A program made the position numbers and the translations under genes. Below are positions 13,593 to 39,741 of a stretch of DNA of 40,068 bases, one piece after another. The notes beneath the pieces are model-generated. The model worked only from the letters and a program-made list of their open reading frames with translations, was not told the DNA's origin and did not search any database. This DNA comes from Rhodospirillaceae bacterium (GTDB taxonomy: Bacteria > Pseudomonadota > Alphaproteobacteria > Rhodospirillales > Rhodospirillaceae), in the NCBI GenBank assembly GCA_019752235.1, contig JAIEMI010000042.1, forward strand, positions 1 to 40,068, given 5' to 3'. Every line of letters begins with the position of its first letter. Position 1 is the first letter of the stretch.

Positions 13593-13617
13593 GCGGCGGA
13601 ATATATCACCCCGCCCG

Positions 13618-14483: not shown

Positions 14484-14689
14484 CGGCGCACGCTCTCCCC
14501 TGCAAAACCATAATGACTTTCGCATATTCCGGAGCGATTCAAAAGTCCGGACAAATCCGCAAATCACCCTGTTACGGGAGACTTAAGACGCCCGATTTCA
14601 AGTCCCCCGAATTCAAGCCCGCCGCAAGCAATGAGGCGATGCAGAGTCTGCCTGATGCGCAGCGGCGCGCATCTGTCACACAGGCTTTA

Positions 14690-19323: not shown

Positions 19324-19327
19324 GAGC

Positions 19328-20557: not shown

Positions 20558-20624
20558 GTGTGCGTTTCCCAGTATGTATGCGGGCGTTTTTTCCCGCGGT
20601 TTTCAGCGTGCGTCAGGTAGCACA

Positions 20625-20642
20625 GGCCTCGAAGGCGAGGCC
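20625..20642. other. Small hairpin between the propionyl-CoA synthetase and CoA-transferase genes
   Basis: Arms GGCCTCG (20625-20631) and CGAGGCC (20636-20642) with loop AAGG. It lies 47 nt after the synthetase stop in the transcribed direction. No T-tract, so it is at best a weak terminator or a repeat remnant. Confidence 0.35.
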
Positions 20643-20688
20643 ATACAATTCCTGCCGATGGGCGTGTTTGTTCATATAGATGAATAAA

Positions 20689-22721: not shown

Positions 22722-23099
22722 TTATTTCGTCGCTTCTTTCAGGTAGGCGATGATGTTGGCGCGAACTTCTTCCTTGGCAACGCCCATGTAGGCCATCTTG
22801 TTGCCCGGGATCAGCGCGCTCGGCTTGGTGATGTATTCGTCGATCTTCTTTTCATCCCAGGTGATGCCGCTTTTCTTGAGCGCATCGGAATAGGTGAAGT
22901 CGGCTTTATTGGTACCGGCCTTCTTGCCTATGATGCCGTGCAGGTTCGGGCCGACTTTGTTCGGGCCGTCCTTTTCGACGGTGTGGCACGCCGTGCACGG
23001 AGCAAACTGCTTCTTGCCCATGGCCGCGTCGCCCGCGGCGTGCGCCGCTGCGAAAGTGAAGGGAACCAGGGCGATCGCCGCCAGAATAGCCGTACGCAT
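22722..23099 (-). CDS. Class I cytochrome c (c2/c550-like)
   Basis: A 125-aa exported monohaem cytochrome. The signal peptide (MRTAILAAIALVPFTFAAAHA) is followed by the haem site C35-T-A-C38-H39 and the axial methionine M102 in PGNKMAYMG, with VGPNLHGIIGKKAG between, typical of soluble cytochrome c2. Probable periplasmic electron carrier to a terminal oxidase. As the last gene before a strong terminator in the dehydrogenase cluster, it is a natural final acceptor for the cupredoxin domains upstream; that partnership is inferred from position only. Confidence 0.9.
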   Translation of the reverse strand: MRTAILAAIALVPFTFAAAHAAGDAAMGKKQFAPCTACHTVEKDGPNKVGPNLHGIIGKKAGTNKADFTYSDALKKSGITWDEKKIDEYITKPSALIPGNKMAYMGVAKEEVRANIIAYLKEATK

Positions 23100-23181
23100 T
23101 AGATGTCCTCGCTGTTGCTGTGAGTGCCGTGAGACTATACGCCGGGTTTACGCGGCGTACCTTATACGTAGATTAAATCCG

Positions 23182-23742
23182 CTAAGTGCCCTTCTTCTTG
23201 ATCATGACCTTTTTCAAGGCCGCTTCGTCGGGCTTCATTTCGACTTGTCCGCCTTTGAAATTGTTGGCCTGTAACAACAGAGCAACAACGTCGGCGACTT
23301 CATTAGGCTTCAGGATACCGGGATTTCCGGCGGGCATCGTAGTCGCGACGCGGGTATAGAGCTCACCGAGGTCGTGGCCGAGCCACTTGGAAAGGAAATT
23401 GTCGCCGGCGAGTTCCGGCGCGGGCTCTTTGCCGCCCATGTCGACCATGTGGCACATGGCGCAGTGTTGCGCATAGAGCACGTCACCGCGTTTGGCCTGC
23501 GCGTTGGTGTAAACGCCGCTCCAGATGTCGGTCGGCATCGCACCGCCGGCGGCAGGGGCGGCAGCGGGTTTCGCGGCGGTCGGAGCGGCAGCGGGTTTCG
23601 CGACCGCTGGAGCGGCAGCGGGTTTCGCGGCGGGCGCAGCAGGCTTCGCGGCATCGGCGGCGGAGACAGCCGCGAGCGGCGCCGCGCAGACCATCGCGGT
23701 CGAGATACAAAATGTTACAAAACGCGCGGCAACACGACTCAT
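23182..23742 (-). CDS. Exported cytochrome c with Ala/Pro/Lys linker
   Basis: A 186-aa protein with a signal peptide (MSRVAARFVTFCISTAMVCAAPLAAVSA) and a flexible linker of AAKPAAAP-type repeats (about 30-68). A monohaem cytochrome domain follows: C94-A-M-C97-H98, with methionine ligand candidate M136 in ATTMPAGNPG. The tail is lysine-rich (KKVMIKKKGT). The linker suggests a tethered or extended shuttle. GAGGGAA precedes the ATG at 23,742; the 16-codon upstream extension is rejected because the signal peptide starts here. Neighbours suggest it accepts electrons from P1 or the PQQ enzymes; its partner is not proven. Confidence 0.88.
   Translation of the reverse strand: MSRVAARFVTFCISTAMVCAAPLAAVSAADAAKPAAPAAKPAAAPAVAKPAAAPTAAKPAAAPAAGGAMPTDIWSGVYTNAQAKRGDVLYAQHCAMCHMVDMGGKEPAPELAGDNFLSKWLGHDLGELYTRVATTMPAGNPGILKPNEVADVVALLLQANNFKGGQVEMKPDEAALKKVMIKKKGT
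23558..23655. repeat. 27-bp tandem repeat coding the cytochrome linker
   Basis: Units beginning GCGGCAGCGGGTTTCGCG start at 23,558, 23,585 and 23,612, with a degenerate fourth near 23,639. They encode the Ala/Pro/Lys linker, so linker length could vary between strains by slippage. Confidence 0.7.
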
Positions 23743-23802
23743 ATAGCGTTCCCTCTTGAAGTAACTCGCCAGGCTGATTCTACCCAACATGATGTCAAAG
23801 CT

Positions 23803-23840
23803 ATGGCCGCCCCGGCCTTATTTGGGTCCGGGGCGGCCAT
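23803..23840 (-). terminator. Strong hairpin after P1
   Basis: Perfect 13-bp arms ATGGCCGCCCCGG (23803-23815) and CCGGGGCGGCCAT (23828-23840), 12-nt loop, about 20 nt after the P1 stop. On the minus strand the sequence after it is AGCTTTGAC, only weakly T-rich, so it may be a partial terminator or an mRNA-stabilising end between P1 and the cytochrome gene. Confidence 0.6.
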
Positions 23841-23859
23841 GCTTCAAAGGCCCATACGT

Positions 23860-25995
23860 TTAGTGCGCCAGCGGATCGGGACGCAACTGAAACTTTACCA
23901 TGTTGGTATGGCCGCCTTCGGTGTGCAGATGGGCATTCTGGGCGGGCGAATAGTCGGCCCATAACCCCCTGCCTTTCCAGCCGGCTTTTGGATCGTCAAT
24001 ACGACCGTCCAGTCCGCGGGTATAAAAACCTAACGGATAGGGGACGCGCAGCACGGTCCACTTGTTTGTCGCCGGATCGATGGCCAGCAGCGAATCCGAA
24101 TTGGTGCCGGGCACGATGGGCACGTCCTTCCCCAGGCCCAACGTATCGTGCAGATCGACCCAGGTGAGATAATGCCAGTCGGCACTCCCGTCTTTGAGGC
24201 CGGCCATTTTCGGGCCGGGGCTGTCGATGAAGCTCCAGCCTTCGGGGCACTGTTGACCGATGGCCGTGGGGCCGGTCTTCACTTTGCACTTGCCGCGGTC
24301 GAAGCGGCCGACCTGTCCGGAACCGAAGGCGACCCAGGCGATGCCCTTTGAGTCCATGTCGACGCCGCGGCCGTTGAACGCGGCGTAGGAGCCGTCGGGC
24401 TTCTTCGGCGGCTCGTAGTATTCGACCTTGCAGGTTTCCGGCGGATTGGCGCCGCGCTCCATGCGGATCACGCCGCTCGGCACAGCCGGCGAGAACTTCG
24501 CCGACCAGACGCTGTCGTCGGCGGAATTGACGTTGAGGCCGTACATGAAGCCGGTGAGCTTGGTGTCCTTCTTCGGATCGAGTTCCTTTTCGGACTTGTT
24601 CCAGTTGTCCTTGTTGGGGTCGATCTTGCCGTCGCCGTTGGTGTCGAGCACCAGCGGGCACCAGCCTTGAGCTTTTTCCGCGTCCTTGGTGGCGTCGTAG
24701 ACGCCGGTTTTAAACCATCCGATGACGTTGGTGTCGCCGCTGAAGTAGAGCGAGTTATCCTTGTCATACCCGAAGTTCAGGTGATGCTGACCGAAGCAGG
24801 TGGGGATCATCTCGATCTTCTTGGTGGCGGGATCGTAATAGCCCATCACGCGCCCGGTGGGCTGGCCGTTGGGATAGAGCTTGGCGAAGGGGTTCTTGGG
24901 ATCGCTGCAGTAGGTGGGGCCCGCGCCCTGGCGGCTGATGCTGCTGAACCACAGGCGGCCCTTCTGATCGAGCATCGGGTTGTGCGGCACGTATTCGATG
25001 TCGTGTTTGCCATCCGGTCCCGGGATATTGACCTCGTAGGCCTTCGCGGTCTTGGGATCGAGGAACGTCAGGTTGCCGTAGTGCGTACCCACGCCGTAAA
25101 CCTCGCCGTTGGCGTTGACGGTGGGATTGCGTTTATCGGTGGTGATTTCATCGTGCACGGAAATGCTGACGCCATCCTTGCCCATGGCCCAGCCCCACTG
25201 GGTCAGCACGATGTTGCGCTCAACGCCGCTGGGGCGCGGCGGCGCTTCCGGCACGGCGCCTTTGCTGATGCCGTCGGTCCAGTCGGCGAACATCTTCAGG
25301 CCGACGGTGCGGCCGAAGCGCGTCATGTTGTTGACCATCATGCCACGGTAGCTTTCGGCCAGCTTATTCATGCGCGGATCGGCGACCGGACCCGTGCCAT
25401 GCGCGATGCGCTCGGCCCAGGCTTCGGAGCTGTTGGCGCTGGGCGCCAGTGTACGCGTCGGGAAGTTGCCGATCTGGTGGCAGAACAGGCATTGCTCCTT
25501 CAGGTGCGCGTGCCAATCCTGTTGTTGCACCATGCCCGGCGAAATACCGTTGCCGTTGGGGCCCGTGCCGGGGAACTGGCTGGCGTCAGGCGCCTTCAGC
25601 ATCGAATACCAGTAGTTGGCGGGATAGATCTCGGCGGCGGCCTGCGCGGTCGGCGCCACGACGGCGGTGAGGTTGACGTTCTTGCCCGGCTGCGCGTCCA
25701 CCTGCTTGGAGTCCGTCAGGCCATAGCCGCGCACCCAAACTTTGTATTTCGCGGGCGGCAGATCGGGCAGCACATAGCGGCCCTGGTCGTCAGTGACCAC
25801 TATTTTGATGAAGCTGGTGGGCAACTCGCCGGTTTCCGCGATCACCCAAACGCCGGCTTCGGGCCCTTTGGAACTGGTGACGACGCCGCCGATATCATCG
25901 CCGTCGATGGCGACGGCTTGGGCGGCATGAGCGGCGGGCGTGACGGCCCAAACCGCCGCACCAGCCAACAGTGTTGAAAGCAGATGCTTTTTCAT
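23860..25995 (-). CDS. P1: carboxypeptidase-regulatory-like domain / CxxCH haem site / Vgb-like propeller protein
   Basis: A 711-aa exported protein with a Sec signal (MKKHLLSTLLAGAAVWAVTPAAHAA). Residues 30-115 form a carboxypeptidase-regulatory-like beta domain (GGVVTSSKGPEAGVWVIAE, TDDQGRYVLPDLPPAKYKVWVRG). A single covalent haem motif C169-L-F-C172-H173 follows. The remaining 500 residues look like a streptogramin-lyase (Vgb)-type beta-propeller (GRLWFSS, GIAWVAFGSGQVGRFDRG). A calcium-loop-like D451-x-N-x-D-G-x-I is present. It is a paralogue of P2. Not a peptidase: no catalytic domain is present. Role unknown; a haem-bearing scaffold or electron-transfer partner is inferred. The gap to gene A is 13 nt and contains a GGAGGG ribosome site, so they are co-transcribed. 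Confidence 0.75.
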   Translation of the reverse strand: MKKHLLSTLLAGAAVWAVTPAAHAAQAVAIDGDDIGGVVTSSKGPEAGVWVIAETGELPTSFIKIVVTDDQGRYVLPDLPPAKYKVWVRGYGLTDSKQVDAQPGKNVNLTAVVAPTAQAAAEIYPANYWYSMLKAPDASQFPGTGPNGNGISPGMVQQQDWHAHLKEQCLFCHQIGNFPTRTLAPSANSSEAWAERIAHGTGPVADPRMNKLAESYRGMMVNNMTRFGRTVGLKMFADWTDGISKGAVPEAPPRPSGVERNIVLTQWGWAMGKDGVSISVHDEITTDKRNPTVNANGEVYGVGTHYGNLTFLDPKTAKAYEVNIPGPDGKHDIEYVPHNPMLDQKGRLWFSSISRQGAGPTYCSDPKNPFAKLYPNGQPTGRVMGYYDPATKKIEMIPTCFGQHHLNFGYDKDNSLYFSGDTNVIGWFKTGVYDATKDAEKAQGWCPLVLDTNGDGKIDPNKDNWNKSEKELDPKKDTKLTGFMYGLNVNSADDSVWSAKFSPAVPSGVIRMERGANPPETCKVEYYEPPKKPDGSYAAFNGRGVDMDSKGIAWVAFGSGQVGRFDRGKCKVKTGPTAIGQQCPEGWSFIDSPGPKMAGLKDGSADWHYLTWVDLHDTLGLGKDVPIVPGTNSDSLLAIDPATNKWTVLRVPYPLGFYTRGLDGRIDDPKAGWKGRGLWADYSPAQNAHLHTEGGHTNMVKFQLRPDPLAH

Positions 25996-26008
25996 ACCCT
26001 ACCCTCCT

Positions 26009-28009
26009 CTATTCGCCGACAATCAGTTGCGCGTAGGTCCAAGGATGGTCCTTGCAGATATACGTGTAAGTGCCGGCTTTATCGAATTTGAGTTTCACGG
26101 ATTGGCCGGGGGCGATGGGCCCCGTGGTCCAGGTGCCGTCCGCCGCCATGGCGGTGTGGGTTTCCTTGCCGCCGTTGACGAAGGTGATGGCTTCCCCCAC
26201 GGCGACCCTATTGCGCAAAGGCCGCACGGCGAACTCGTCGTGGGCCTCACGCACGAACTCCAGCCCGCTGTCGGCTATGGTGACGCCCATCTTCACAGTG
26301 GCGGCGGACTCGATACGCCCCGCGAATGTCGTCACGGTCGGCGGCGGCTCCGGCGCCGGTTGCGGTGCCACGCTGCCGCCCAGCTTGAAGGCCCAGAGAT
26401 TGCCGCCCGCGAACGTCGCGACATACTGCTCACCGTCCGCCTCGTAGATGCCGGGTGTACCGGACGCATTGGCGCCGGTCTGGAATTCCCACAGCTTCTC
26501 GCCGTTCTTGGCGTCGAAGGCTTGGAAATGTCCGTCAGGATCGCCGTGAAACAACAGGCCGCTCTTGGTGGCGGTGAAACCACTGCCGTTTTCTATGCGG
26601 TACTTAGTGCGATGCTCCCAGGCGACTTTGCCGTTGTGCGCATTGACCGCCGCAATCAAGCCTTCGCTCTTCATGCCGGGAATGCTGTAGCTGGCGCTAA
26701 AGAACTTCGGTTCCTGATAACGATTGTACCAACGCCCGGCGACCGCGGCCGTCGCGTAGATATGTCCCGTTTCAGGATTGACGGCCATGGGCGCCGCGCG
26801 CGTGCGCACGATGGGGTACATAATGTTCGGCATGTCGTAGTCGATGGGATCATACAGGCACGCGGGCTTGTATCCGTTGGGCACCATGTCCAGGGGCACG
26901 CAACGCGGGCCGAGCTGGTCCACGCCCACCGGGAACGGCTGCGTCGGCGACGTATGCAAGCGCTTGTTCTGGGGCACCGGGCGCTCTTCAATCGGAATGA
27001 GCGGCTCGCCTGTGGCGCGGTCGAAAGTGAAGGTGAAGCCCGCGGCGCTGATGATACTCAAGGCTTTGCGCTTCTTGCCGTTGAAGGTGCCGTCGAACAG
27101 CACCGGCGGGGTGCCGAGGTCGGCCTCCCAGATGTCGTGATGCACGACCTGGTAGTGCCATTTCAACTCGCCGGTTTTAATATCGAGCGCGAGAATAGAA
27201 TCGGAATAGAGATTGTCGCCTTTGCGCAATTCGCCGCCCCATTGGGGCACCGGATTGCCGACGCCGAAGTAAATGAGCCCGAGCGCGGAATCGACGACAC
27301 CGTTCATCCACACACCGCCGCCGCCGCGCTTCCATTCGTCGTTGTCGGATGGCCAGGTTTCAAAACCCTTGTCGCCGGGTCCGGGGATCGCGTGGAAGCG
27401 CCAGGCCTCCTTGCCGGTCTTGGCGTCAAGCGCCACGACGCGGCCGCGCAAGCCATAGTCGCCGTTGGCGACGCCCGCGATGACAAGGCCGTTTGCATAC
27501 GTCGGCCCGGCGGGAATAGCCTGGCCTTTCAGCGCGGGATCATCGCCCGCAATGCCTTCCCAGACTTTTTCGCCGGTTTTCTGGCGCAAGGCGATGATGT
27601 GCGCATTCCCGAGGCCGATGAACACTAAGTCCTCGCCGGTCGCGACGCCCTTGTACATGCCCGACGTCGGCGTCGGGAGTTTTACCGACCATACCGTCTC
27701 GCCGGTTTTGGGGTTAAGGCCATAGGCATTCGCGCCGGCGGTCACGAACATCAATCCGCCCGCGACGACCGGATTGGCGCGCGACGCCGCGCCTTCAAAT
27801 TTACGCAGCCATGCCCCGCCAAGCTGCTTGACGTTGGCGGGCGTGACTTGAGTCAAAGTTGAAAAACGGGTGCCCGCCAAGTCGCCGTTGGGTGCGGGCC
27901 ATTCCTTGCCCGCGGGTTTGTTGAGATCGGCGGCGAGTGCCGGCATCGCGGCGAACGCCGCAGCCATCAGCACACAGGTATTCCCAATAGAACGCAAAGT
28001 GTACTTCAT
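26009..28009 (-). CDS. A: PQQ-type dehydrogenase fused to a C-terminal cupredoxin
   Basis: A 666-aa periplasmic protein. The signal peptide ends PALAADL, so it is soluble. Residues 30-550 are an eight-bladed PQQ dehydrogenase propeller: repeated blade motifs (LDAKTGKEAWRF, LDIKTGELKWHY, AFDAKNGEKLWEFQTG), GGGGVW with W234, N252 in GNPVPQW (Ca-ligand position) and D265 in GDNLY (catalytic-base position). Residues about 575-666 are a cupredoxin with H618, C652 and H655, ending CKDHPWTYAQL; the amicyanin axial Met position is T658. The vicinal Cys-Cys of methanol and alcohol dehydrogenases is absent. The ATG at 28,009 has GGGAGGG 6 nt upstream; a longer start is rejected. Coupled to P1. Substrate unknown. 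Confidence 0.85.
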   Translation of the reverse strand: MKYTLRSIGNTCVLMAAAFAAMPALAADLNKPAGKEWPAPNGDLAGTRFSTLTQVTPANVKQLGGAWLRKFEGAASRANPVVAGGLMFVTAGANAYGLNPKTGETVWSVKLPTPTSGMYKGVATGEDLVFIGLGNAHIIALRQKTGEKVWEGIAGDDPALKGQAIPAGPTYANGLVIAGVANGDYGLRGRVVALDAKTGKEAWRFHAIPGPGDKGFETWPSDNDEWKRGGGGVWMNGVVDSALGLIYFGVGNPVPQWGGELRKGDNLYSDSILALDIKTGELKWHYQVVHHDIWEADLGTPPVLFDGTFNGKKRKALSIISAAGFTFTFDRATGEPLIPIEERPVPQNKRLHTSPTQPFPVGVDQLGPRCVPLDMVPNGYKPACLYDPIDYDMPNIMYPIVRTRAAPMAVNPETGHIYATAAVAGRWYNRYQEPKFFSASYSIPGMKSEGLIAAVNAHNGKVAWEHRTKYRIENGSGFTATKSGLLFHGDPDGHFQAFDAKNGEKLWEFQTGANASGTPGIYEADGEQYVATFAGGNLWAFKLGGSVAPQPAPEPPPTVTTFAGRIESAATVKMGVTIADSGLEFVREAHDEFAVRPLRNRVAVGEAITFVNGGKETHTAMAADGTWTTGPIAPGQSVKLKFDKAGTYTYICKDHPWTYAQLIVGE

Positions 28010-28043
28010 CGAAACCCTCCCCTGAGTCGATAACGCGACCGTT

Positions 28044-28071
28044 ACGCTAGCATGGGCCATGGCTCTGTAAA
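28044..28071 (-). promoter_or_regulatory. Weak promoter candidate for A-P1
   Basis: On the minus strand TTTACA (28071-28066), a 16-nt spacer and TAGCGT (28049-28044) could form a sigma70-like promoter, placed just after the hairpin that ends gene B. Match quality is modest; read-through from B is the alternative. Confidence 0.25.
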
Positions 28072-28107
28072 ACGAATTGGGCTTCAAACCGGAATGGCGA
28101 AACGAAG

Positions 28108-28133
28108 ATGGGCGGACCCGAGGGTCCGCCCAT
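28108..28133 (-). terminator. Hairpin terminator candidate after B
   Basis: Perfect 12-bp arms ATGGGCGGACCC (28108-28119) and GGGTCCGCCCAT (28122-28133), closing a tight CGAG-type loop, about 40 nt after the B stop. On the minus strand it is followed by CTTCGTTTCG, a weak T-tract. Likely terminates part of the transcription between B and A. Confidence 0.65.
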
Positions 28134-28174
28134 TCCGTGAGAGTTCAATACCGTGAACTTACAATCCGTTACCG

Positions 28175-30250
28175 TTATTCTTCGATGGTCAACTCGGCGT
28201 AGGACCACGGATGGTCCTTACAGATATACGTGTAAACGCCGGGCTTATCGAAGGTCATGGTCATGGACTTGCCGGGCGCGATGGGGCCCGTGGTCCAGGA
28301 GCCGTCCATCGCCGTGGCGGTATGGGTTTCCTTGCCCTTGTTCACCCATGTGACCTTCTCGCCCACCGAACTTTTCGCGCGGGTCGGCTGCACGGCATAT
28401 TCGTCGATGGCTTCACGCATTTTGCCCAAGCCGGTGTCCTTCACTGTCGGGCTCATGGTGATTTCATCCGTCGCCATGATGCGGCCGCTCCACGACGTCA
28501 CCGTCGCGGGCGGTTCCGGCGCGGGCAGCGGCTGCACCGTGCCGCCGAGCTTGAAGGACCATAGCGTATGGGTGTTGTTCAGCGCCACATACTGCTCGCC
28601 GTCGATCTCGTAGGTCATCACGGCGCCCGACGCATAAGCGCCGGTCTGGAAGGTCCAAAGCGTTTCGCCGGTTTTCTGATCGTAGGCTTGCACCGTGCCG
28701 TCGGGCTCGCCGTGGAACAGCAGGCCGCCCGCCGTCGCCATCATGCCGCTGCCGTTCTGAATTTCGTAGGGCATCGGTTTCTGCCACACGATCTTATTGG
28801 TGCGGCTGTCGATGGCGGCGATGATGCCGGTGGTCTTGATGCCCGGCACGCCGGTTCCCATGGCGCTGAAGAACTTCGGATCCTCGAAACGGCGGATCCA
28901 GAAGGGCCACGCGGGCGACCCCGACAGATAGAAGTGCTTGGTCTGCGGGCTGTAGGCCATGCGCGCGGCGCGCGTCGTGTTGATGGGATACATGGCGTTG
29001 GGCGTGTCGTAGTCCACCGGATCGTAGTGGCACAAAGCCTTGAAGCCCGCCGGAATGTTTTCCGGCACCACGCAGTTCGGGCCCACCTGATCGGCGCCCA
29101 CGGGGAACGGCTGCGTCGGCGCGGTTTTCACGCGCGCGTTTTGCGGCACCGGGCGTTCTTCCACGGGATGGATCGGCGCGCCGGTGACACGGTCGAGCAA
29201 GAACAGATACCCGTCGGTGCGCATGACGGCGATGCCCTTACGCGCCTTGCCGTCAACCGAAGCATCGTAGAGCACCGGCGGCGTGCCGAGATCGGATTCC
29301 CAGATGTCGTGATGCACCAGCTGGAAGTGCCACTTGCGCTGGCCGGTCTTGATATCGAGTGCGACGAGCGACGTCGTATACAGGTTGTCACCCGCACGCG
29401 CTTCGCCGCCCCACTGCGGCACGGGATTGCCGGTGCCGAAGTAAACCAGGCCCAGGTCCGTATCGATGGCGGGCGTCGTCCAGATCCCGCCGCCGCCCTT
29501 GATCCATTCGTCGTTGTCGGCGGGCCATGAGCTATGGCCCGGATCGCCGGGGCCCGCGGTGGCGTCCCAACGCCAGAGTTGGTTGCCGGTCTTGGCGTCG
29601 AGGCCGACGACACGGCCGCGCACGCCGTAGTCACCGTTGACCATCGGCACGATGACAATGCCGTTGGCGTACGCCGGCGCGGTGGAGATGAACTGACCCG
29701 TGGGCGACTGCGCCTTCACGACGCTCTCTTCGGCTTCCTTGTCGCCGATGTTGGTGGACCACACCAACTCGCCGGTGGCTTCCTTGAGGCCGATGACGCC
29801 GGCGTCGGACAAGCCGACGAAGACCATGCCCTCGCCCATCGTCACGCCTTTATAGAGGCCGGTGGGAGCGATGGACGGTTTGTACTGCCAGATTTTTTCG
29901 CCGGTCTTGGGATTGAACGCGTACACGTGATTGCCGGCGGTGACGTACATCACGCCGTTGGACACCACCGGCGTCGCGCGCGTGCTTTCGCCCTCGAATT
30001 TGTGGGACCAGGCGCCGCCCAGTGTTTTGACGTTGCCGGCGTTGATCTTGTCGAGGGTGGAGAAACGCTGGTTCCCCCAGTTGCCTTCGATCATCGGCCA
30101 GTTGTTGCCGGCGGGCGCGGCGTTGGACTGTTTGCCGCCCTGGTCGGAACACCCGGCGACGGTTACAGCGGCAAGGCCCATCAAAGCCACGACGCTGACA
30201 CCAAGTTTTTTGGCACCAAGTTTTTTGGCGCCAAATTTATGGACACGCAT
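28175..30250 (-). CDS. B: PQQ-type dehydrogenase lipoprotein fused to a C-terminal cupredoxin
   Basis: A 691-aa paralogue of A. The N-terminus contains a repeated GAKKL stretch, a hydrophobic segment and a lipobox ending VAGC34, so it should be a lipoprotein. The propeller keeps GGGGIW, N275 in GNPVPQW, D288 in GDNLY and H313-H314-D315-I-W317. The cupredoxin ligands are H643, C677 and H680, with S683 at the amicyanin Met position and the ending CKDHPWSYAEL. It has the pair C-x13-C shared by all five paralogues and lacks the vicinal Cys-Cys. A strong GGGGAGG site precedes the ATG. There is no room for a promoter between it and the P2 hairpin, so it is probably read through from P2. Confidence 0.85.
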   Translation of the reverse strand: MRVHKFGAKKLGAKKLGVSVVALMGLAAVTVAGCSDQGGKQSNAAPAGNNWPMIEGNWGNQRFSTLDKINAGNVKTLGGAWSHKFEGESTRATPVVSNGVMYVTAGNHVYAFNPKTGEKIWQYKPSIAPTGLYKGVTMGEGMVFVGLSDAGVIGLKEATGELVWSTNIGDKEAEESVVKAQSPTGQFISTAPAYANGIVIVPMVNGDYGVRGRVVGLDAKTGNQLWRWDATAGPGDPGHSSWPADNDEWIKGGGGIWTTPAIDTDLGLVYFGTGNPVPQWGGEARAGDNLYTTSLVALDIKTGQRKWHFQLVHHDIWESDLGTPPVLYDASVDGKARKGIAVMRTDGYLFLLDRVTGAPIHPVEERPVPQNARVKTAPTQPFPVGADQVGPNCVVPENIPAGFKALCHYDPVDYDTPNAMYPINTTRAARMAYSPQTKHFYLSGSPAWPFWIRRFEDPKFFSAMGTGVPGIKTTGIIAAIDSRTNKIVWQKPMPYEIQNGSGMMATAGGLLFHGEPDGTVQAYDQKTGETLWTFQTGAYASGAVMTYEIDGEQYVALNNTHTLWSFKLGGTVQPLPAPEPPATVTSWSGRIMATDEITMSPTVKDTGLGKMREAIDEYAVQPTRAKSSVGEKVTWVNKGKETHTATAMDGSWTTGPIAPGKSMTMTFDKPGVYTYICKDHPWSYAELTIEE
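30201..30239. repeat. 15-bp direct repeat in the leader of gene B
   Basis: CCAAGTTTTTTGGCA (30201-30215) is followed by CCAAGTTTTTTGGCG (30216-30230) and a partial third unit. It encodes GAKKLGAKKLG ahead of the lipoprotein signal. Looks like slippage duplication; each unit is itself a small palindrome around a T-run. Confidence 0.6.
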
Positions 30251-30287
30251 CCTTATACGCCCTCCCCGGCGGCGAAGAATAAATTCA

Positions 30288-30329
30288 GAAATGAAAACAG
30301 CGGCAGGCCAGTTTTCCTGACCTGCCGCT
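30288..30329 (-). terminator. Rho-independent-like terminator after P2
   Basis: On the minus strand arms AGCGGCAGG (30329-30321) and CCTGCCGCT (30307-30299), extended by CAG/CTG after one mismatch, are followed by GTTTTCATTTC. It lies about 31 nt after the P2 stop, in the right orientation. Confidence 0.7.
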
Positions 30330-30360
30330 GCTTTGCAACGACGTTATCTACCCTGATCGC

Positions 30361-32487: not shown

Positions 32488-32602
32488 CGGGTTCTCCTCC
32501 CACACGGATTGCGCGGACACCATTCCACGCACGAAAGCAGAGGACATGCACAGCGCTTATGCGCCGTTCGACCTCCGCAAACTGATGCCAAAATGTGCCT
32601 CC

Positions 32603-34675
32603 TTACTCCTCAACAATCAACTGTCCATAGGACCAAGGATGCTCATTACAAATATATGTGAACGTTCCAGGTGATTTGAAACTGAGTGTAACAGATTTGC
32701 CCGGCGCGATTTCGCCGGTGCGCCACGAACCATCTTGCGCTGCAATAGAATGAGGCGTTTTGCCGGTGTTGGTCCATGTGACTTTGGCATCCCTGCCTTC
32801 GCGCCTGACCTTCGCCCGCACCGGTTGAAACGCATACTCGTCGAAGGATTCGCGGACCTTCTCGACCCACCCTGCGTCACGGACCGTCGCGCCAACGACA
32901 ATTTGGCTCGTTTCGACAACTCGGCCGCCAAAGGCGGATTCCGCCGGCGGCGCATGTTCTTTGAAGGCTGGCGGCGCTTCCAACGGCGGCACGGTTCCGC
33001 CGAGTTTGAAGGCCCAAACGCCGCCCTTGGTCACGAGACCTACATATTGTTCGCCGTCGGCTTCATAGATCGCGACCGGTTGATTGGCGTCGAAGCCGGT
33101 CTGGAATTGCCACAACAGATCGCCGCTCTTGGCGTCGTAAGCATCCAACAGGCCGTCGGTATTGCCGTGGAACAAGAGGCCGCCCTTGGTGGTGGTGAAA
33201 CCGCTGCCGTTATGTTGCGTGCGGTAGGGCACCTTCTTCTGCCAGACGAGTTTGTTGGTGCGGCTGTCGAAGGCCGCCAGGAGACCCTCGAACTTCATGC
33301 CCGGCACCTGCGGCAGCACCATATAGAACTTCGGATCTTCGGTGCGTTTGATCCACGAGAACCAGTTGGCGCCCGCGGCGTAGAAATATTTGGTCTCCGG
33401 GTTGAAGGCCAAGGGCGCGGCGCGCGTCGTCATCATCGGATACATGGCGTTGGGCATGTCGTAGTCGATGGGATCGAACTGACACATGGCCTTGAAGCCT
33501 GCGGGGATCAATTCCTCCGGCGTGCAGCGTGAACCCATATGATCGGCGCCCGCGGGGAACGGCTGCGTGGCCGCCGTGAACAGGCGCGGATTCTGCGGCA
33601 CCGGGCGGTCTTCGACGGGATACACCGGCTTGCCGGTCTCACGGTCGAGCACGAACATGTAGCCGTAGGTGTGCATCACCGCGACCGCTTTGTGTTTTTT
33701 GCCTTCGAACTCCGGCTCGAACAAAATCAGCGGCGCGCCCAGCTCGGCTTCCCACAGGTCGTGACGCGTCACCTGGAAGTGCCAGCGCAGCTTTCCGGTC
33801 TTGATGTCGAGCGCGACGACGGAACTGGTGTAGAGGTTGTCGCCCTTACGCGCTTCGCCGCCCCACTGCGGCACCGGATTGCCAACGCCGAAATAGATCA
33901 AACCCAGGTCCGGATCGACCGCGCCATTCATCCATACGCCGCCGCCGCCGCCCGGCTGCCAGGTAGAACGGTCGGCGGGCCAGGTTTCCGATCCCGGTTC
34001 GCCTTCATTGGGCACGGCGTTGAAACGCCACACCTGTTTGCCGGTCTTGGCGTCGAGCGCGACGATACGCCCCTGCACGCCGTAATCGCCGATGGCCAGC
34101 CCGCTGATGACAAGGCCATCCACATACGTGGGCCCGGCGGAAATCAGCTGGCCCGCCGTCATGGTGCCGCCGCCCATGGAGGCGGCGGCCGTGACCGGTC
34201 CGCGCGCGTCGCCAATCAGCCCCTGCCACACCTGCTCGCCGGTCTCCTGTCTGACGGCAACGATGTGCGCGTTCGACAGGCCGACGAACACCAGGCCTTC
34301 GCCGAGCGCGACACCTTTATAGAGGCCATGCGCGGGCGCGGACGGTTTGTGAATCCAGACCGTGGCGCCGGTCTTCGGATCAAGCGCGTACACCTTCGCG
34401 CCCGCCGTGATGTACATCAACCCGTTGCCGATCACGGGATTGACGTAGGAACTTTCACCTTCAAACTCGTGGAACCACGCGCCGCCGAGATTTTTGATGG
34501 TGGCGGTGTTGATCTGATCCAGTGTCGAATAGCGCGTGTTGGCCCAATCACCATGGACCGTCACCCACTCCTTGCCCGCGTGCGTGATCTTGCGGGCGGG
34601 ACTTTGCCACGCGTTATAGGCAAATCCGGCGATGCCCAGCACCACCGCCGCGCCGCCGATCAGCAGCTTGTTCAT
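32603..34675 (-). CDS. C: membrane-anchored PQQ-type dehydrogenase fused to a C-terminal cupredoxin
   Basis: A 690-aa paralogue of A. The N-terminus (MNKLLIGGAAVVLGIAGFAYNAW) is an uncleaved-looking membrane anchor without a lipobox cysteine. The propeller keeps N266 in GNPVPQW and D279 in GDNLY, but the HHDIW motif of its relatives reads RHDLW (304-308), and the following DLGTP is ELGAP. There is a glycine/methionine-rich insertion (AAASMGGGTM, about 164-173). Cupredoxin ligands H642, C676 and H679, with S682 at the Met position; the ending is CNEHPWSYGQL. It starts 9 nt after the vWA gene, so the two are co-transcribed. The motif changes suggest a different substrate or a non-catalytic role. 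Confidence 0.83.
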   Translation of the reverse strand: MNKLLIGGAAVVLGIAGFAYNAWQSPARKITHAGKEWVTVHGDWANTRYSTLDQINTATIKNLGGAWFHEFEGESSYVNPVIGNGLMYITAGAKVYALDPKTGATVWIHKPSAPAHGLYKGVALGEGLVFVGLSNAHIVAVRQETGEQVWQGLIGDARGPVTAAASMGGGTMTAGQLISAGPTYVDGLVISGLAIGDYGVQGRIVALDAKTGKQVWRFNAVPNEGEPGSETWPADRSTWQPGGGGGVWMNGAVDPDLGLIYFGVGNPVPQWGGEARKGDNLYTSSVVALDIKTGKLRWHFQVTRHDLWEAELGAPLILFEPEFEGKKHKAVAVMHTYGYMFVLDRETGKPVYPVEDRPVPQNPRLFTAATQPFPAGADHMGSRCTPEELIPAGFKAMCQFDPIDYDMPNAMYPMMTTRAAPLAFNPETKYFYAAGANWFSWIKRTEDPKFYMVLPQVPGMKFEGLLAAFDSRTNKLVWQKKVPYRTQHNGSGFTTTKGGLLFHGNTDGLLDAYDAKSGDLLWQFQTGFDANQPVAIYEADGEQYVGLVTKGGVWAFKLGGTVPPLEAPPAFKEHAPPAESAFGGRVVETSQIVVGATVRDAGWVEKVRESFDEYAFQPVRAKVRREGRDAKVTWTNTGKTPHSIAAQDGSWRTGEIAPGKSVTLSFKSPGTFTYICNEHPWSYGQLIVEE

Positions 34676-34684
34676 CGCGACGAT

Positions 34685-35431
34685 CTATCCTTGGGGCCTG
34701 AGACTGCCGGCAATTTCCAGGCTGAGTTTGCGGATCAGGGCCTCGCTGAAATCCTCCGGCTTGCGCACGGTAAAGGCAAAAGACCCTGGTCCGCCCACGA
34801 CCTGTTTTTGAAAATAGTCGGTGATATGTTTGTGAACTGTTTTCCCCGGACGCGGCGGGAAGATGATCTGAAGACCGTTCACGGTGATGCCCGCTTTCAC
34901 GGCGTCATCACGCGCGGCGGTCACCGACCGTCCGGCCATGGTATCGCAATCGTCGCAGCGCTCGCCGGAAATATCGATGATCCTGCGCGCCGCGCGATAA
35001 CCGTTGTCCTTCAGCAGTTGGGCGGAAAAATCGATGCCGCCGCTGATCGACGTCGGGCCGAGGGAGCGCACAGGATGTATTTCCAGCTCGGCGGCAAAGG
35101 ATTCGGCGCTCGCCGCATCGGAGATAACGCGCCACGGCACCAACTGCTTCTGCTCGGCGGGGCCCGACCACTCGACATAGGTAACCGCTATGCGGCCGAT
35201 GGGGCCGGCGCGCACGGAGTCGATGAACTCCTTGCTTCGCAGGGCGGTGAGATAGCCGTTACGCTGAACTTTCCCATCGACCACCTCGATACTTTCGGAA
35301 ATATCCACCGCCAAGACCAGGGCGACATCGACCGACGTCTCGGCGCTCACGGATGGCGTCGAAATAAACACAGCCGCGATAACGCATAGAACAAGGCGCT
35401 GCAGAGAGGTCCGCCGTGCTGCTGCTCTCAT
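34685..35431 (-). CDS. Exported DUF1194 von Willebrand factor A-like protein
   Basis: About 248 aa with a signal peptide (LQRLVLCVIAAVFISTPSVSA). The VWA-type fold shows the metal-site motif D-I-S-E-S in LVLAVDISESIE, then VQRNGYLTALRSKEF, GRIAVTYVEWSG, TSISGGIDFSAQLL and RIIDISGERCDD, all typical of DUF1194. The family has no assigned function. VWA proteins often act in metal-dependent assembly or maturation, and placement among copper/PQQ enzymes suggests such a role here (inference). The start at 35,431 is preferred because a terminator lies immediately upstream in the extended frame; its ribosome site is weak. Only 9 nt from gene C. Confidence 0.8.
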   Translation of the reverse strand: MRAAARRTSLQRLVLCVIAAVFISTPSVSAETSVDVALVLAVDISESIEVVDGKVQRNGYLTALRSKEFIDSVRAGPIGRIAVTYVEWSGPAEQKQLVPWRVISDAASAESFAAELEIHPVRSLGPTSISGGIDFSAQLLKDNGYRAARRIIDISGERCDDCDTMAGRSVTAARDDAVKAGITVNGLQIIFPPRPGKTVHKHITDYFQKQVVGGPGSFAFTVRKPEDFSEALIRKLSLEIAGSLRPQG

Positions 35432-35452
35432 CGATTCACCAGAGGAATCTTC

Positions 35453-35490
35453 AAAAAAATGGGGCTGGGGACACAGATCCCGCAGCCCCA
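35453..35490 (-). terminator. Rho-independent terminator after D
   Basis: On the minus strand GGGGCTG-C-GGGA pairs with TCCC-CAGCCCC (35489-35478 with 35471-35461, one bulge) and is followed by A and seven T residues (35459-35453). It lies about 20 nt after the D stop. Because the vWA gene starts 22 nt later with no room for a promoter, it probably attenuates rather than fully stops transcription. Confidence 0.82.
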
Positions 35491-35510
35491 CTGATTTTAG
35501 CCTGACCGCT

Positions 35511-37526
35511 TTATTCTTCCACGGTCAGTTCGCCGTAGGACCACTCGTGTTCTTTGCAATTGTAAGTGAACACGCCGGGGTGATCGAACGTGAGGCTGGC
35601 CGACTTGCCGGGCGCGATGGGCCCTGTCGTCCACGAACCGTCAACGGCGGCGACTTCGTGGGTTTCCTTGCCCCGGTTGGTCCACGTCACTTTCTGGCCG
35701 ACCGTCACCTTCGCGCGTTGCGGCGCGATGCCGTACTCGTCGACCGCTTCACGCACGAACTCCAGCCCACTGTCCTTCTTGGTCGGGCTGAGGATAATCT
35801 CTTCGGCCGGGACGATCCGTCCCGTGAACGTGGTTTCGGTCGGCGGCGCGGGCGGCGCGGGCAGCGGCTCGACCTTGCCGCCGAGCTTGAAAGTCCAAAG
35901 GCCCGTCGTGGACGCGATGGCGAAGTATTGCTCGCCATCCACTTCATAAGTGGAAGGAGGCTGGTTGGCGCTGCCGCCGGTCTGGAACTGCCAGATCTGG
36001 TCACCGGACTTGGCGTCGATGATTTCGACCGTGCCGCCGGCATTGCCGCGGAACAGCACGCCGGAAGCGGTGGAGATGAATCCGCTGCCGTTCTGCTGCG
36101 TCTGGAAAGGCACTTCCTTCTGCCACAGCAGCTTGTTGGTCTTGGCGTCCATCGCCGCGTGCAGGCCCTTGTACTTGATGCCCGGCGCCGACGAACCGGC
36201 GTCGAAGAACTTGCCGTCTTCGAAACGGTGCATCCAATAGGGCCAGATGGCGCCCGAGGCGTAGAACGCCTTGGTGACGGGGTTGTAGCTGATGGGGGCC
36301 GCGCGCGTGGTCAGAATCGGATACATCGCGTTCGGGGTGTCGTAGTCGACCGGGTCGAACTGACACAGCGCCTTGAAGCCCTTCGGTATCATCGCCTGAT
36401 CCACGCAGCGCGGACCGATCTGATCAGCGCCCACCAGGAACGGCTGCGTCGGCGATGTCTTCTGGCGCGCGTTCTGCGGCACGGGGCGCTCTTCCACCGG
36501 CCAGATCGGCTTGCCGGTCTTGCGGTCCAGCATGAAGATCTGTCCATAGGTCGTGGTGATGGCGATCGCCTTCGCCTTTTTGCCGTCTACTTCCGACTCA
36601 AAAAGGATCGGCGGGGTGCCAAGATCGGCTTCCCAGATGTCGTGGTGCACCACCTGAAAGTGCCACGCCAACTTGCCCGTCTTCACGTCTAGCGCAACGA
36701 CGGAACCGCTGAACAGGTTGTCGCCCGCGCGCAGCTCGCCGCCCCACTGCGGAATCGGATTGCCGATGCCGTAGTAAATCAAGCCGAGTTCCGGGTCGTA
36801 GGCGCCATGGATCCACACGCCCCCGCCGCCCGGTTGCCAATCCTGGTGATCCTGCGGCCAGGTGTCCCAGCCCGGTTCATCCTTGTTGGCGGGGGTGGTG
36901 TTGAAGCGCCAAAGCTGTTCGCCCGTCTTCGCGTCGAAGCCCATGATGCGGCCGCGGATACCGAAATCGCCGTTGGCCATGGGCACAACCACGACGCCAT
37001 CCGTATAGGTCGGGCCGGAGGCGACGAACTGGCCTTTCGTGGCGCCTTCGTCGGCAAGGCGGGAATCCCAGACAATTTCGCCGGTCTTTTGTGTCAGGCC
37101 CATGATGCGGCCGTTACCCGTGCCGACAAACAGCATGTCGCCGCCAACGGCGGAGCCCTTATACGTACCGTGCATCGCGTGCGGCGATTTCACGCTCCAG
37201 ATCTTCTCACCGGTCTTCGGATTCAACGCGTAGACGTCCGACGTGGTCGTCACAAACATCACGCCGTTGGCAACGATCGGCGTGCCGACGGGCCTGCTGT
37301 CCTCGAACTTCGTCACCCAGGCCGCGCCCACATCCTTGGCGTTGGCCGGCGTCACCTGTTTCAACGTCGAGAAGCGCGTGTTGCCCCAATCGCCGCCGAC
37401 CGTGGGCCAGTCCTTGCCCGCGGGCTTGGTCAAATTACCGCTACTATCTTGGCCGCAGCCCGTCAGAGCGATGGCCGAAACACTGAGCGCCAATGCGACG
37501 CTCCTCCAAAGTTTACGTGAACGCAT
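35511..37526 (-). CDS. D: PQQ-type dehydrogenase lipoprotein fused to a C-terminal cupredoxin
   Basis: A 671-aa paralogue of A. The signal ends in a lipobox LTGC24, so it is a lipoprotein. The propeller keeps GGGGVW, N256 in GNPIPQW, D269 in GDNLF and H294-H295-D296-I-W298, with blade motifs such as FDAKTGEQLWRF and LDVKTGKLAWHF. The cupredoxin has H623, C657 and H660, and S663 at the amicyanin Met position; its ending CKEHEWSYGEL differs from the others at the Pro (Glu). GGGGAGG precedes the ATG. It lies 32 nt downstream of E without a terminator, so E and D are co-transcribed, and a terminator follows. Confidence 0.85.
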   Translation of the reverse strand: MRSRKLWRSVALALSVSAIALTGCGQDSSGNLTKPAGKDWPTVGGDWGNTRFSTLKQVTPANAKDVGAAWVTKFEDSRPVGTPIVANGVMFVTTTSDVYALNPKTGEKIWSVKSPHAMHGTYKGSAVGGDMLFVGTGNGRIMGLTQKTGEIVWDSRLADEGATKGQFVASGPTYTDGVVVVPMANGDFGIRGRIMGFDAKTGEQLWRFNTTPANKDEPGWDTWPQDHQDWQPGGGGVWIHGAYDPELGLIYYGIGNPIPQWGGELRAGDNLFSGSVVALDVKTGKLAWHFQVVHHDIWEADLGTPPILFESEVDGKKAKAIAITTTYGQIFMLDRKTGKPIWPVEERPVPQNARQKTSPTQPFLVGADQIGPRCVDQAMIPKGFKALCQFDPVDYDTPNAMYPILTTRAAPISYNPVTKAFYASGAIWPYWMHRFEDGKFFDAGSSAPGIKYKGLHAAMDAKTNKLLWQKEVPFQTQQNGSGFISTASGVLFRGNAGGTVEIIDAKSGDQIWQFQTGGSANQPPSTYEVDGEQYFAIASTTGLWTFKLGGKVEPLPAPPAPPTETTFTGRIVPAEEIILSPTKKDSGLEFVREAVDEYGIAPQRAKVTVGQKVTWTNRGKETHEVAAVDGSWTTGPIAPGKSASLTFDHPGVFTYNCKEHEWSYGELTVEE

Positions 37527-37558
37527 GCAATCCTCCCCGGATTAAATGGTGATGGTGA

Positions 37559-39571
37559 TTATTCCTCGACGATGAGCTGCGCTTGCGAGAACGGATGTTC
37601 GCTGCAGCTGTAGGCATAGGTGCCCGGTTTGTTGAACGTCACCGTGGCGGACTTTCCGGGCGCGATGGGCCCCGTGGTCCAGGAGCCGTCGAGCGCATTG
37701 GCCGTGTGGGTTTCCTTACCGGCGTTGGTGAACTTCACCTTCGTGCCGAGGGTCACCTTGGCGCGCGCCGGCATGAAGGCGTACTCGTCGTAGGCCTCGC
37801 GGACCTTATCGACCAGGCCGGTGTCCTGGATGTGCGCCGACATGGTGATCTCTTCGGTGGCGACAATGCGGCCGGCGAAGCGGCTTTCCGGAACCGGCGG
37901 CGTCGGGGCCGGCAGCGGCTGTACGGTGCCGCCGAGCTTGAAGGCCCAGATGCCGACCGGCGTCGCCAGCGAGACGTACTGCTCGCCTTTCACTTCATAG
38001 GTAGCCACGGGATTGTTGGCGTTGGCGCCGGTCTGGAACTGCCAGAGCCGTTCGCCGGTCTTGGCGTTGTAGGCCTGCAGGTTGCCGTCGGGCTCGCCGT
38101 GGAAAATCAGGCCGCCGGCGGTCGCGGTGACGCCGCCGCCGTTCTGAATTTCGTACGGCAGATCCTTCTGCCAGGCGATCTTGTTGGTTTTGGCATCCAG
38201 CGCCGTCAGCTGGCCGGAGTACTTGATGCCCGCACCCGTCGGCACGGCCACGAAGTACCAGGGATCTTCGAAGCGCTTCATCCAGAACGGCCACTCGGAA
38301 GACGTGGCATAGAACATTTCCGTCTGCGGGCTGTAGGCCATGGGGGCCTGGCGCGTGTGCAGGATCGGATACATGAAGTTCGGCGTGTCGTAGTTGTGCG
38401 GATCGAACTGGCACGCGGCCTTGAAACCTTCCGGCACGCGGTCCTCGCGCACGCACCGCGAACCGATTTGATCGGCGCCCACCAGATGCGGCTGCGTCGC
38501 CGCGGTCTTCTGATGCGCGTTTTGCGGCACGGCGCGTTCTTCCACCGGCCAAATCGGCTTGCCGGTTTCACGGTTGAGCATGAACAGCTCGCCGTAGGTC
38601 GACATCACGCCGACGGCTTTTTCTTTCTTGCCGCCGACGTTGGAGACAAACAGCACGAGCGGGGTGCCGAGATCGGCTTCCCAGATGTCATGGTGCACAA
38701 TCTGGTAGTGCCACTTTACTTTGCCGGTCTTGAGATCGAGCGCCACGGCGCTGTCGGTATAGAGGTTGTCGCCGCCGCGCGTTTCGCCGGCGAACTGCGG
38801 AACCGGATTGCCGGTGCCGAAGTAGACCATATCGAGATCGGGATCGACCGCGGGCGTCGTCCAGACGCCGCCGCCGCCGCGCTTCCAGTCTTCGTTGGTC
38901 TGGTCCCAGGTTTCATGGCCCGGCTCGCCGGGGCCCGGCACGGCATAGAAACGCCAAACTTCCTTGCCGGTCTTGGCGTCCAGACCCACGACACGCCCGC
39001 GGAAACCGTAGTCGCCGTTGGCCATGCCGCTGACGACGATGCCTTTCGCATAAGCCGGCGGGCTCGAAATCGCCTGGCCGCGCAGCGGCGGATCGTCACC
39101 TACGCGTCCGACCCAAAGCTCCTTGCCGGTGGCGAGGTCGACGGCGGCGATGCGCGCGCCCGACAGACCGACAAACACCTTGCCTTCGCCCAAGGTCACG
39201 CCGCGCGTGGTCGCGCCTTCGGCGGGCTTATAAGTCCAGATGTCCTCGCCGGTGACGGGGTCGAGCGCGATCATTTGCGCGCCGCCCGAGATGAACATTT
39301 TTCCGTCGGCGACAACGGGTGTGCCGCGTCCGCCAAAGCCGCTGCTGGCCGCGTCCACTTTGCGCAGCCATGCGCCGCCGAGCGTCTTCACGTTGGTGGT
39401 GTTGATTTTGTCGAGGGCGGAGTAGCGCGTATTGCCCCAATCGCCGCCGCCCATGGGCCATTCGGACTTCGCGGGCTTGCTCCAATCGACTTTTTGATCG
39501 CAAGCGGTCAGCGCAATGGCAGAAACACCGACGGCTGCGGCAATGCCCAGCCCTAGCGTAAACCCACGCAT
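37559..39571 (-). CDS. E: PQQ-type dehydrogenase lipoprotein fused to a C-terminal cupredoxin
   Basis: A 670-aa paralogue of A and first gene of the cluster. The signal ends in a lipobox LTAC24. The propeller keeps GGGGVW, N255 in GNPVPQF, D268 in GDNLY and H293-H294-D295-I-W297. It alone has TTRG in the early loop where the others have YKG; an arginine here contacts PQQ in methanol dehydrogenase. Cupredoxin ligands H622, C656 and H659, with S662 at the Met position; ending CSEHPFSQAQL. GGGAGG precedes the ATG, and a sigma70-like promoter lies about 40 nt upstream. Confidence 0.85.
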   Translation of the reverse strand: MRGFTLGLGIAAAVGVSAIALTACDQKVDWSKPAKSEWPMGGGDWGNTRYSALDKINTTNVKTLGGAWLRKVDAASSGFGGRGTPVVADGKMFISGGAQMIALDPVTGEDIWTYKPAEGATTRGVTLGEGKVFVGLSGARIAAVDLATGKELWVGRVGDDPPLRGQAISSPPAYAKGIVVSGMANGDYGFRGRVVGLDAKTGKEVWRFYAVPGPGEPGHETWDQTNEDWKRGGGGVWTTPAVDPDLDMVYFGTGNPVPQFAGETRGGDNLYTDSAVALDLKTGKVKWHYQIVHHDIWEADLGTPLVLFVSNVGGKKEKAVGVMSTYGELFMLNRETGKPIWPVEERAVPQNAHQKTAATQPHLVGADQIGSRCVREDRVPEGFKAACQFDPHNYDTPNFMYPILHTRQAPMAYSPQTEMFYATSSEWPFWMKRFEDPWYFVAVPTGAGIKYSGQLTALDAKTNKIAWQKDLPYEIQNGGGVTATAGGLIFHGEPDGNLQAYNAKTGERLWQFQTGANANNPVATYEVKGEQYVSLATPVGIWAFKLGGTVQPLPAPTPPVPESRFAGRIVATEEITMSAHIQDTGLVDKVREAYDEYAFMPARAKVTLGTKVKFTNAGKETHTANALDGSWTTGPIAPGKSATVTFNKPGTYAYSCSEHPFSQAQLIVEE

Positions 39572-39642: not shown

Positions 39643-39741
39643 CCAGCTATGGTCTTGATAACACACCCGCTTGATAAAACGGGGCGCGCGGGTTACCGCT
39701 GATGCGAAGGTGATCACATATATATACGCGAGGGATTGCTC

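Follow-up and report, generated by a model that had tools for sequence, protein, structure and literature searches.

Propeller–cupredoxin fusions with a uniformly rebuilt cofactor pocket in a cytochrome-linked gene cluster of a Rhodospirillaceae bacterium

Proteins with a quinoprotein fold are often taken for pyrroloquinoline quinone (PQQ) enzymes on fold alone, and a run of ten genes in a Rhodospirillaceae bacterium raises the question of which cofactor such proteins use. The window analyzed here is a whole contig of 40,068 nucleotides (JAIEMI010000042.1), from an assembly of 3.82 Mb that is 79.5% complete (GCA_019752235.1, here G000). Five of the ten genes encode an eight-bladed propeller fused to a C-terminal cupredoxin domain; we label these fusions and their relatives in other genomes PQc. 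An earlier note on this DNA had read the fusions as ordinary PQQ dehydrogenases. That reading is not supported: Asp303 and Lys/Arg331 are replaced in all 21 PQc sequences aligned, and four of the five genomes with PQc show neither pqqC nor an above-cut-off pqqE. The uniformly rebuilt pocket of the PQc clade, as judged from aligned sequences, is the new point of this analysis.

The pocket alignment comprised 21 PQc sequences (nine from G000, five from G026, one from G011, and three each from G305 and G385) and 16 comparison rows, namely 1kb0 and 15 other quinoprotein-like proteins, some of them partial or only distantly related; row G030_C35 does not enter the counts. Position 303 is Glu in every PQc, whereas it is Asp in all 16 comparison rows. 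Position 331 is Thr, Ala, Met or Ser in PQc (mostly Thr; never Lys or Arg in the 21), against Lys in all 15 comparison rows with a letter there. Arg replaces Asn at position 394 and Gly replaces Thr at position 241 throughout PQc (21/21 each), and the metal ligand at position 177 changes from Glu to Asp in 21/21, a residue also found in 5 of the 16 comparison rows. All 21 retain Trp243 and Asn261, and position 305 is Asp in 20 (motif ExD; ExE once). Arg occupies position 55 in 17/21, Lys position 109 in 18/21, and Asn position 476 in 19/21 (one gap, one Phe). Vicinal Cys-Cys is found in none of the 21, a weak criterion because just two rows of the 16 used for comparison, G020_C11 and 1kb0, carry it at the expected place. 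In the own numbering of one window fusion, PQc_e, the pocket consists of D187, W237, N255, E298, D300 and R407. We take positions 55, 109, 243, 394 and 476 to be further PQQ contacts. PMC8028316 gives Glu177, Asn261 and Asp303 as ligands, with Arg331, Thr159 and Ser174 in the second shell; the lanthanide Asp, position 305 here, follows PMC11845868.

The replacements are not scattered. At 12 pocket positions chosen beforehand, the mean majority frequency is 0.92, against 0.67 over 522 columns, a value that a single random draw in 20,000 attained. Such near-uniform replacement across PQc therefore points to a pocket that was rebuilt rather than one that decayed, and PQc would thus either hold PQQ in a new way or use another cofactor or metal centre.

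The fold itself is that of a quinoprotein. The five window fusions match the PF01011 propeller at 287–317 bits; against TIGR03075 they and the G011 protein score 302–339 bits, below the cut-off of 480, and against TIGR04528 the scores are 294–323 bits, below the cut-off of 650. A structure model of PQc (predicted local distance difference test score, pLDDT, 81.2) matches 1kv9 with a Z score of 35.4 and a root-mean-square deviation (rmsd) of 2.7 over 480 aligned residues; BamB and designed propellers are matched as well, at Z of about 30–31. In a tree with 20 PQc rows, the PQc branch has a support of 100/97, with two outgroup branches that are long and join each other. On this evidence PQc is a separate quinoprotein clade, apparently descended from quinohaemoprotein-type alcohol dehydrogenases. 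At E ≤ 1e-120, PQc matches occur in 3 of 61 relatives (G000, G011, G026); a class sample of 385 genomes, with at most three PQc candidates scored per genome, contains them in three (G000, G305, G385). The five genomes fall into two families: G305 and G385 share a genus, G026 belongs to another genus than the window, and G305 to another family. A recent tandem duplication of the five window fusions is unlikely, given that they are mutually 53–59% identical and form no single group in the tree, although several of its forks are weakly supported. The search for plasmid-borne PQc gave 375 matching records, all below 60% identity, of which three were examined, from Variovorax, Nonomuraea and Streptomyces, each with Asp303 and Lys331 intact; among viral contigs, one 30% match retains Asp303. 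Neither source was accepted as carrying PQc. Literature searches at title and abstract level found no paper on a cluster of PQQ-propeller/cupredoxin fusions, from which we claim no absence from print.

Could these bacteria supply PQQ? A first pqqC search had no positive control match; the later pqqC and pqqE searches contain positives. At E ≤ 0.001, pqqC has no match in any of the 19 genomes of the window's genus, nor in G026 or G385, and it is present in G305. An above-cut-off pqqE was found in G305, G030 and G025 and in none of G000, G011, G026, G385 and G020. Since the pocket is replaced and pqqC and pqqE are lacking in four of five genomes, PQQ dependence of PQc is not supported. Missing biosynthesis alone does not disprove PQQ use, as G020 (99% complete) illustrates: it has no pqqC and no above-cut-off pqqE, and its quinoprotein at L052:8371-10449 has a near-canonical PQQ site (Glu55, Cys-Cys, Arg109, Glu177, Asn261, Asp303 and Lys331; 394 and 476 differ), which makes G020 a likely PQQ scavenger. 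G000 also encodes quinoprotein-like proteins that retain Asp303 and Lys331. Import through a PqqU-type receptor was considered as well. From a search of six genomes with E. coli PqqU, the 12 best matches were aligned; they represent 11 proteins of five genomes, G020 contributing none, and not one has all three signature residues named in the excerpt of PMC12124388, a weak rejection given poor alignments with many gaps at those positions. According to the same excerpt, PQQ is small enough for outer-membrane passage and PqqU is nearly absent from Alphaproteobacteria, so PQQ could still be scavenged.

All ten ORFs (open reading frames) of the cluster lie on the minus strand at 22722–39571, with intergenic gaps of 9–110 bp, and a hydrophobic N-terminal segment is present in 10/10 proteins; the strand and the export signals were thus as the earlier note had described them. 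Pfam assigns five PQQ-propeller + cupredoxin proteins, two CarboxypepD_reg-like/CxxCH proteins, one DUF1194 protein and two cytochromes c; its cut-off is not reached by either CarboxypepD_reg match or by several of the cupredoxin ones. The ten-gene extent stands as well, except that it had omitted a divergent nitroreductase-family gene upstream and the same-strand continuation downstream of 22722 (acyl-CoA synthetase, CoA-transferase III and acyl-CoA dehydrogenase, 18154–22608). The features are as follows.

39736..40068, plus strand: nitroreductase-family gene, divergent, truncated at the contig end, 165 bp from PQc
37559..39571, minus strand: PQc_e, quinoprotein-like propeller + cupredoxin, lipobox signal
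35511..37526, minus strand: PQc_d, quinoprotein-like propeller + cupredoxin, lipobox signal
34685..35491, minus strand: vWA-type exported protein, DUF1194 (PF06707, 213 bits)
32603..34675, minus strand: PQc_c, quinoprotein-like propeller + cupredoxin, N-terminal hydrophobic anchor
30361..32547, minus strand: P1, CarboxypepD_reg-like + single CxxCH (C191; M241 conserved) + seven-bladed virginiamycin-B-lyase-like propeller
28175..30250, minus strand: PQc_b, quinoprotein-like propeller + cupredoxin, lipobox signal
28108..28133, minus strand: terminator-like hairpin in the PQc_b/PQc_a gap, from a consensus scan; 11-bp stem, weak T-tract
26009..28087, minus strand: PQc_a, quinoprotein-like propeller + cupredoxin, Sec-type signal, true start probably internal
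23860..25995, minus strand: P2, second haem/Vgb-like propeller protein, 52% identity to P1
23182..23790, minus strand: cyt2, exported c-type cytochrome (Cytochrome_CBB3)
22722..23099, minus strand: cyt1, exported cytochrome c; top NCBIfam match c-550 CycA, 110 bits, below the cut-off of 240
20689..22608, minus strand: acyl-CoA synthetase, acetate/propionate-CoA ligase-like, 708 bits, below the cut-off of 955
19328..20557, minus strand: CoA-transferase family III (CaiB/BaiF)
18154..19347, minus strand: acyl-CoA dehydrogenase
Outside the window, L025:4658-7866 and L045:4850-7953, also L038, L067, L069, L073 and L075: DUF1552/DUF1592 module loci

Three of the five fusions carry a lipobox, and the protein of 32603–34675 looks anchored rather than cleaved. 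The called starts of 23182–23790, 26009–28087, 30361–32547 and 34685–35491 are probably too early, because in these four ORFs an internal Met precedes the signal peptide. Elsewhere in the window, a phytanoyl-CoA dioxygenase-family gene (13659-14567, minus strand) adjoins a lower-GC stretch (51% GC, 12001-14000).

We compared the surroundings of 17 PQc loci (five each in G000 and G026, one in G011, three each in G305 and G385). The neighbor counts are lower bounds because several fetched contigs are shorter than 15 kb, and all co-occurrence figures are raw counts among related genomes. PQc, cyt2 and cyt1 cluster in three genera, represented by the window, L044 (G026) and L093 (G305). The window and L044, on a 14-kb contig from another genus, share the order PQc, cyt2, cyt1, acyl-CoA synthetase, CaiB, acyl-CoA dehydrogenase at identities of 57–81%, the three CoA genes being 72%, 65% and 81% identical, respectively. 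L044 has one PQc and no P1, P2 or vWA gene, and a divergent nitroreductase gene lies upstream of its PQc too. At L093, in another family, cyt2, cyt1 and PQc are adjacent. The PQc chain of G011 runs on into a C-terminal cyt2-like haem domain (44% identity, E 5e-27); a domain of this kind also terminates a different propeller protein of the window's own genome (L035). The cytochrome link of PQc is thus supported by gene order and by a fused chain. Cytochrome b561 and HiPIP genes, together with DUF1592/DUF1552, occur at 2 of the 17 loci (L025, L045). A module of DUF1552 and DUF1592/1588 proteins with a protein of 360–390 residues recurs beside PQc and P1-type genes in Alphaproteobacteria. The DUF1194 protein, which the earlier note had expected to co-occur with the fusions, gave no BLAST match at the 16 other PQc loci; it is found at 1/17, the window itself, and was dropped as a constant partner. 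In methanol dehydrogenase operons, vWA proteins help metal insertion, and by analogy a similar role of the DUF1194 protein is possible.

P1 and P2 had been described as two haem/propeller proteins. The CxxCH motif and the propeller are indeed present. A PQQ propeller was considered for them and rejected, as Pfam gives no PQQ match and the nearest fold is that of virginiamycin B lyase (Vgb). The P1 model (pLDDT 90.6) is a seven-bladed propeller closest to Vgb 2z2n (Z 25.7, rmsd 2.4, 287 aligned residues), followed by other propellers at about 21–22; a P1 profile run against PDB sequences gave no significant match. CxxCH and Met241 are present in 51/51 aligned P1 relatives, from which we infer a His/Met c-type haem, and His297, His356, His423, His705 and Glu707 are conserved in 50–51 of 51. 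These His/Glu residues may line the propeller funnel; Vgb has catalytic His and Glu residues and a Mg site. P1-type genes occur in 14 of the 61 relatives and in 10 of the 385 class members (E ≤ 1e-60), including all five PQc genomes, so the proposed co-occurrence with the fusions stands at genome level. At locus level they accompany PQc at only 3/17 (window, L092, L095), the G385 copy being apparently frame-broken; in G305, about 90 bp separate a PQc other than that of L093 from a downstream P1-type gene in the same orientation. Conversely, no PQc match (E ≤ 1e-120) is found in 11 of the 14 and 7 of the 10 P1-carrying genomes, and G009, a genome of 2.8 Mb, has at least 18 P1-type genes by hand count. 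Other genus members also carry P1-type genes, for example at L058, L070 and L072. Genes of tannase/feruloyl esterase type lie near P1-type genes at four loci (L057, L065, L069, L070), a hint of plant-phenolic substrates. Recurrent neighbors, defined as single-linkage clusters with one member each named by Pfam, are acyl-CoA dehydrogenase, CaiB, tannase/feruloyl esterase, TonB receptors and proteins with DUF1552 or DUF1592. One plasmid record, from Microvirga ossetica, matches P1 (37.7% identity). On sequence grounds, P1 and P2 belong to a separately expanded family that appears to have been recruited to this locus.

What, then, does the locus do? That it is a respiratory oxidation module is well supported. 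We lean slightly towards a more specific reading: a periplasmic oxidation module built on a re-tooled quinoprotein variant, with cytochromes c receiving its electrons. The exported PQc would oxidize a small organic substrate in the periplasm, and electrons would pass to cyt2 and cyt1, either directly or, for the window copies, perhaps through the cupredoxin; cyt2 and cyt1 would then hand them to the respiratory chain or an oxidase. The product, probably an acid, could be activated by the adjacent acyl-CoA synthetase and then handled by the CaiB transferase and the acyl-CoA dehydrogenase. P1 and P2 are probably further haem-linked oxidoreductases that also act on small organic compounds. Of the modular oxidation system proposed earlier, the periplasmic redox unit with cytochromes c is supported (three genera and the G011 chain), while the ordinary PQQ enzymes and the conserved vWA partner are not.

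Several observations weigh against this reading. Separate cyt2/cyt1 genes stand at only 3/17 PQc loci and CoA genes at only 2/17, and in L044 the nitroreductase gene lies 1.4 kb from PQc, with one uncalled ORF, versus 165 bp in the window. The hairpin at 28108–28133 falls between two fusions and may split the transcript; terminator-like sites in the region number 25, against 19.7 (standard deviation 4.5) in shuffled sequence. G305 carries both pqqC and pqqE. The cupredoxin domain (PF00127/PF13473) varies as well. Its His/Cys/His set is intact in all five window fusions and in C43, C47 and G026_C266; of the 19 PQc with a complete C-terminus, these eight retain the Cys. It is lost in the other 11 (C10, C127, C7, C307, the G011 protein and all six rows of G305/G385), which rules out the cupredoxin as an obligate copper carrier of the whole family. 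The Cys-less proteins include those that adjoin cyt2 (L044, L093) or are fused to a cyt2-like domain (G011), and Pfam finds no cupredoxin match in the G011 PQc protein. A copper step is therefore plausible for the window copies only, and transfer from propeller to haem may be direct. The axial position, which we assign from the Met of amicyanin, is Thr or Ser in all five window fusions; Met is present there in G026_C127 and G305_C274, both without the Cys. Some type 1 copper sites lack an axial Met.

As to what the pocket holds, PQc may have given up PQQ for another cofactor or for a bare metal centre (Asp177, Asn261, Glu303, Asp305, Arg394), in a cytochrome-linked oxidation system with the haem–Vgb propeller family; we consider this a serious possibility, if rather short of probable. 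It is also possible, though less likely than not, that PQc are ordinary PQQ-dependent alcohol dehydrogenases whose shifted pocket accommodates PQQ together with Ca or a lanthanide. Lys109, Arg55 and Arg394 would then hold the PQQ carboxylates, and Asp177, Asn261, Glu303 and Asp305 the metal. PQQ would be made by the cell, as in G305 with its pqqC and pqqE, or diffuse from neighbors. The close match to 1kv9 (Z 35.4), the invariant Trp243 and Asn261 and the near-invariant Asp305 at the lanthanide position are all consistent with this. A D303E methanol dehydrogenase is reportedly active, and by its title 1h4j is a solved structure of that variant. The G000 proteins that keep Asp303 and Lys331 suggest that PQQ may reach this cell, and, per the excerpt of PMC12124388, numerous Gram-negative bacteria employ PQQ that they do not synthesize. 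Yet the catalytic Asp, Lys331, Glu55, Asn394, Trp476 and the Cys-Cys loop are all replaced, mostly by the same residues throughout, pqqC has no match in the 19 genus genomes, G026 and G385, and the 12 best PqqU matches (11 proteins) from six genomes, poorly aligned as they are, include no full signature.

Loss of the canonical catalytic residues would also be expected if PQc were catalytically dead, a propeller of BamB type for binding or scaffolding, whose cupredoxin carries electrons or stores metal. The match of BamB and designed propellers to the fold and the frequent loss of the cupredoxin Cys (11/19) agree with this account, which we nevertheless consider unlikely: the new pocket is nearly invariant, unlike a decaying site, and the proteins are fused to, and ordered with, cytochromes c. 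Less likely still is a locus devoted mainly to lithotrophy or metal handling, such as metal-ion or sulfur oxidation, rather than to organic oxidation. FoxY of the Fe(II)-oxidation operon foxEYZ has been modeled as an eight-bladed propeller (PMC10654088, in excerpt), and PQc adjoins cytochrome b561 and HiPIP genes at L025 and L045. Organic substrates are favored instead by the gene order that two genera share, with its acyl-CoA synthetase, CaiB and acyl-CoA dehydrogenase, and by the surroundings of P1-type genes elsewhere, which include genes for acyl-CoA dehydrogenase, CaiB, MmgE/PrpD, TonB receptors and tannase/feruloyl esterase.

The PQc clade, with its uniform, differing pocket and genomes mostly without PQQ biosynthesis, offers a direct test of other redox chemistry on the quinoprotein fold: the uniformity of the pocket turns cofactor use into a directly testable question. 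It also cautions against counting PQc-like genes as alcohol dehydrogenases. In these bacteria the haem–Vgb family, at least 18 genes strong in a single genome of 2.8 Mb, appears to make up a sizeable unassigned share of periplasmic metabolism.

Among known systems, PQc resembles the PQQ methanol and ethanol dehydrogenases and the quinohaemoprotein alcohol dehydrogenases (TIGR03075; 1kb0, 1kv9, PedH 6zcv/6zcw) in its eight-bladed propeller, Trp243, Asn261, export and cytochrome c partners, with 31–34% identity to the quinohaemoprotein enzymes and PedH over 460–480 aligned residues. It differs from the TIGR03075 enzymes in its score below the cut-off, D303E, the absence of Lys/Arg331, N394R, E177D, the missing Cys-Cys and the added C-terminal cupredoxin. 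To Acido-empty-quinoprotein group A (TIGR04528), a family whose model name sets it apart from PQQ enzymes, PQc scores about as well as to TIGR03075, though far below the cut-off; this comparison is by score. P1 shares the seven-bladed fold of Vgb (2z2n, Z 25.7) but is 12% identical to it without a sequence-level match, and has an extra CarboxypepD_reg-like domain and one CxxCH. The mxa methanol-oxidation operon places an exported quinoprotein beside cytochrome c and vWA-type accessory genes, and the window likewise has exported quinoprotein-like genes beside cytochrome c and vWA-type genes; in contrast to mxa, Pfam recognizes a methanol dehydrogenase small subunit in none of the ten, and the DUF1194 link is not conserved. 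The expansion that the earlier note called unusually large is confirmed at five fusions, and it has a precedent in heterotrophic marine Thaumarchaeota, whose 21 quinoprotein variants, per the excerpt of PMC7300363, are likewise many paralogues, none with Cys-Cys. There, in contrast to the ExD (once ExE) of PQc, 9 of the 21 variants keep DYD or DXD and the genomes encode PQQ synthase; for those quinoproteins, the quinone pool or copper proteins have been suggested as electron acceptors (PMC7300363, in excerpt).

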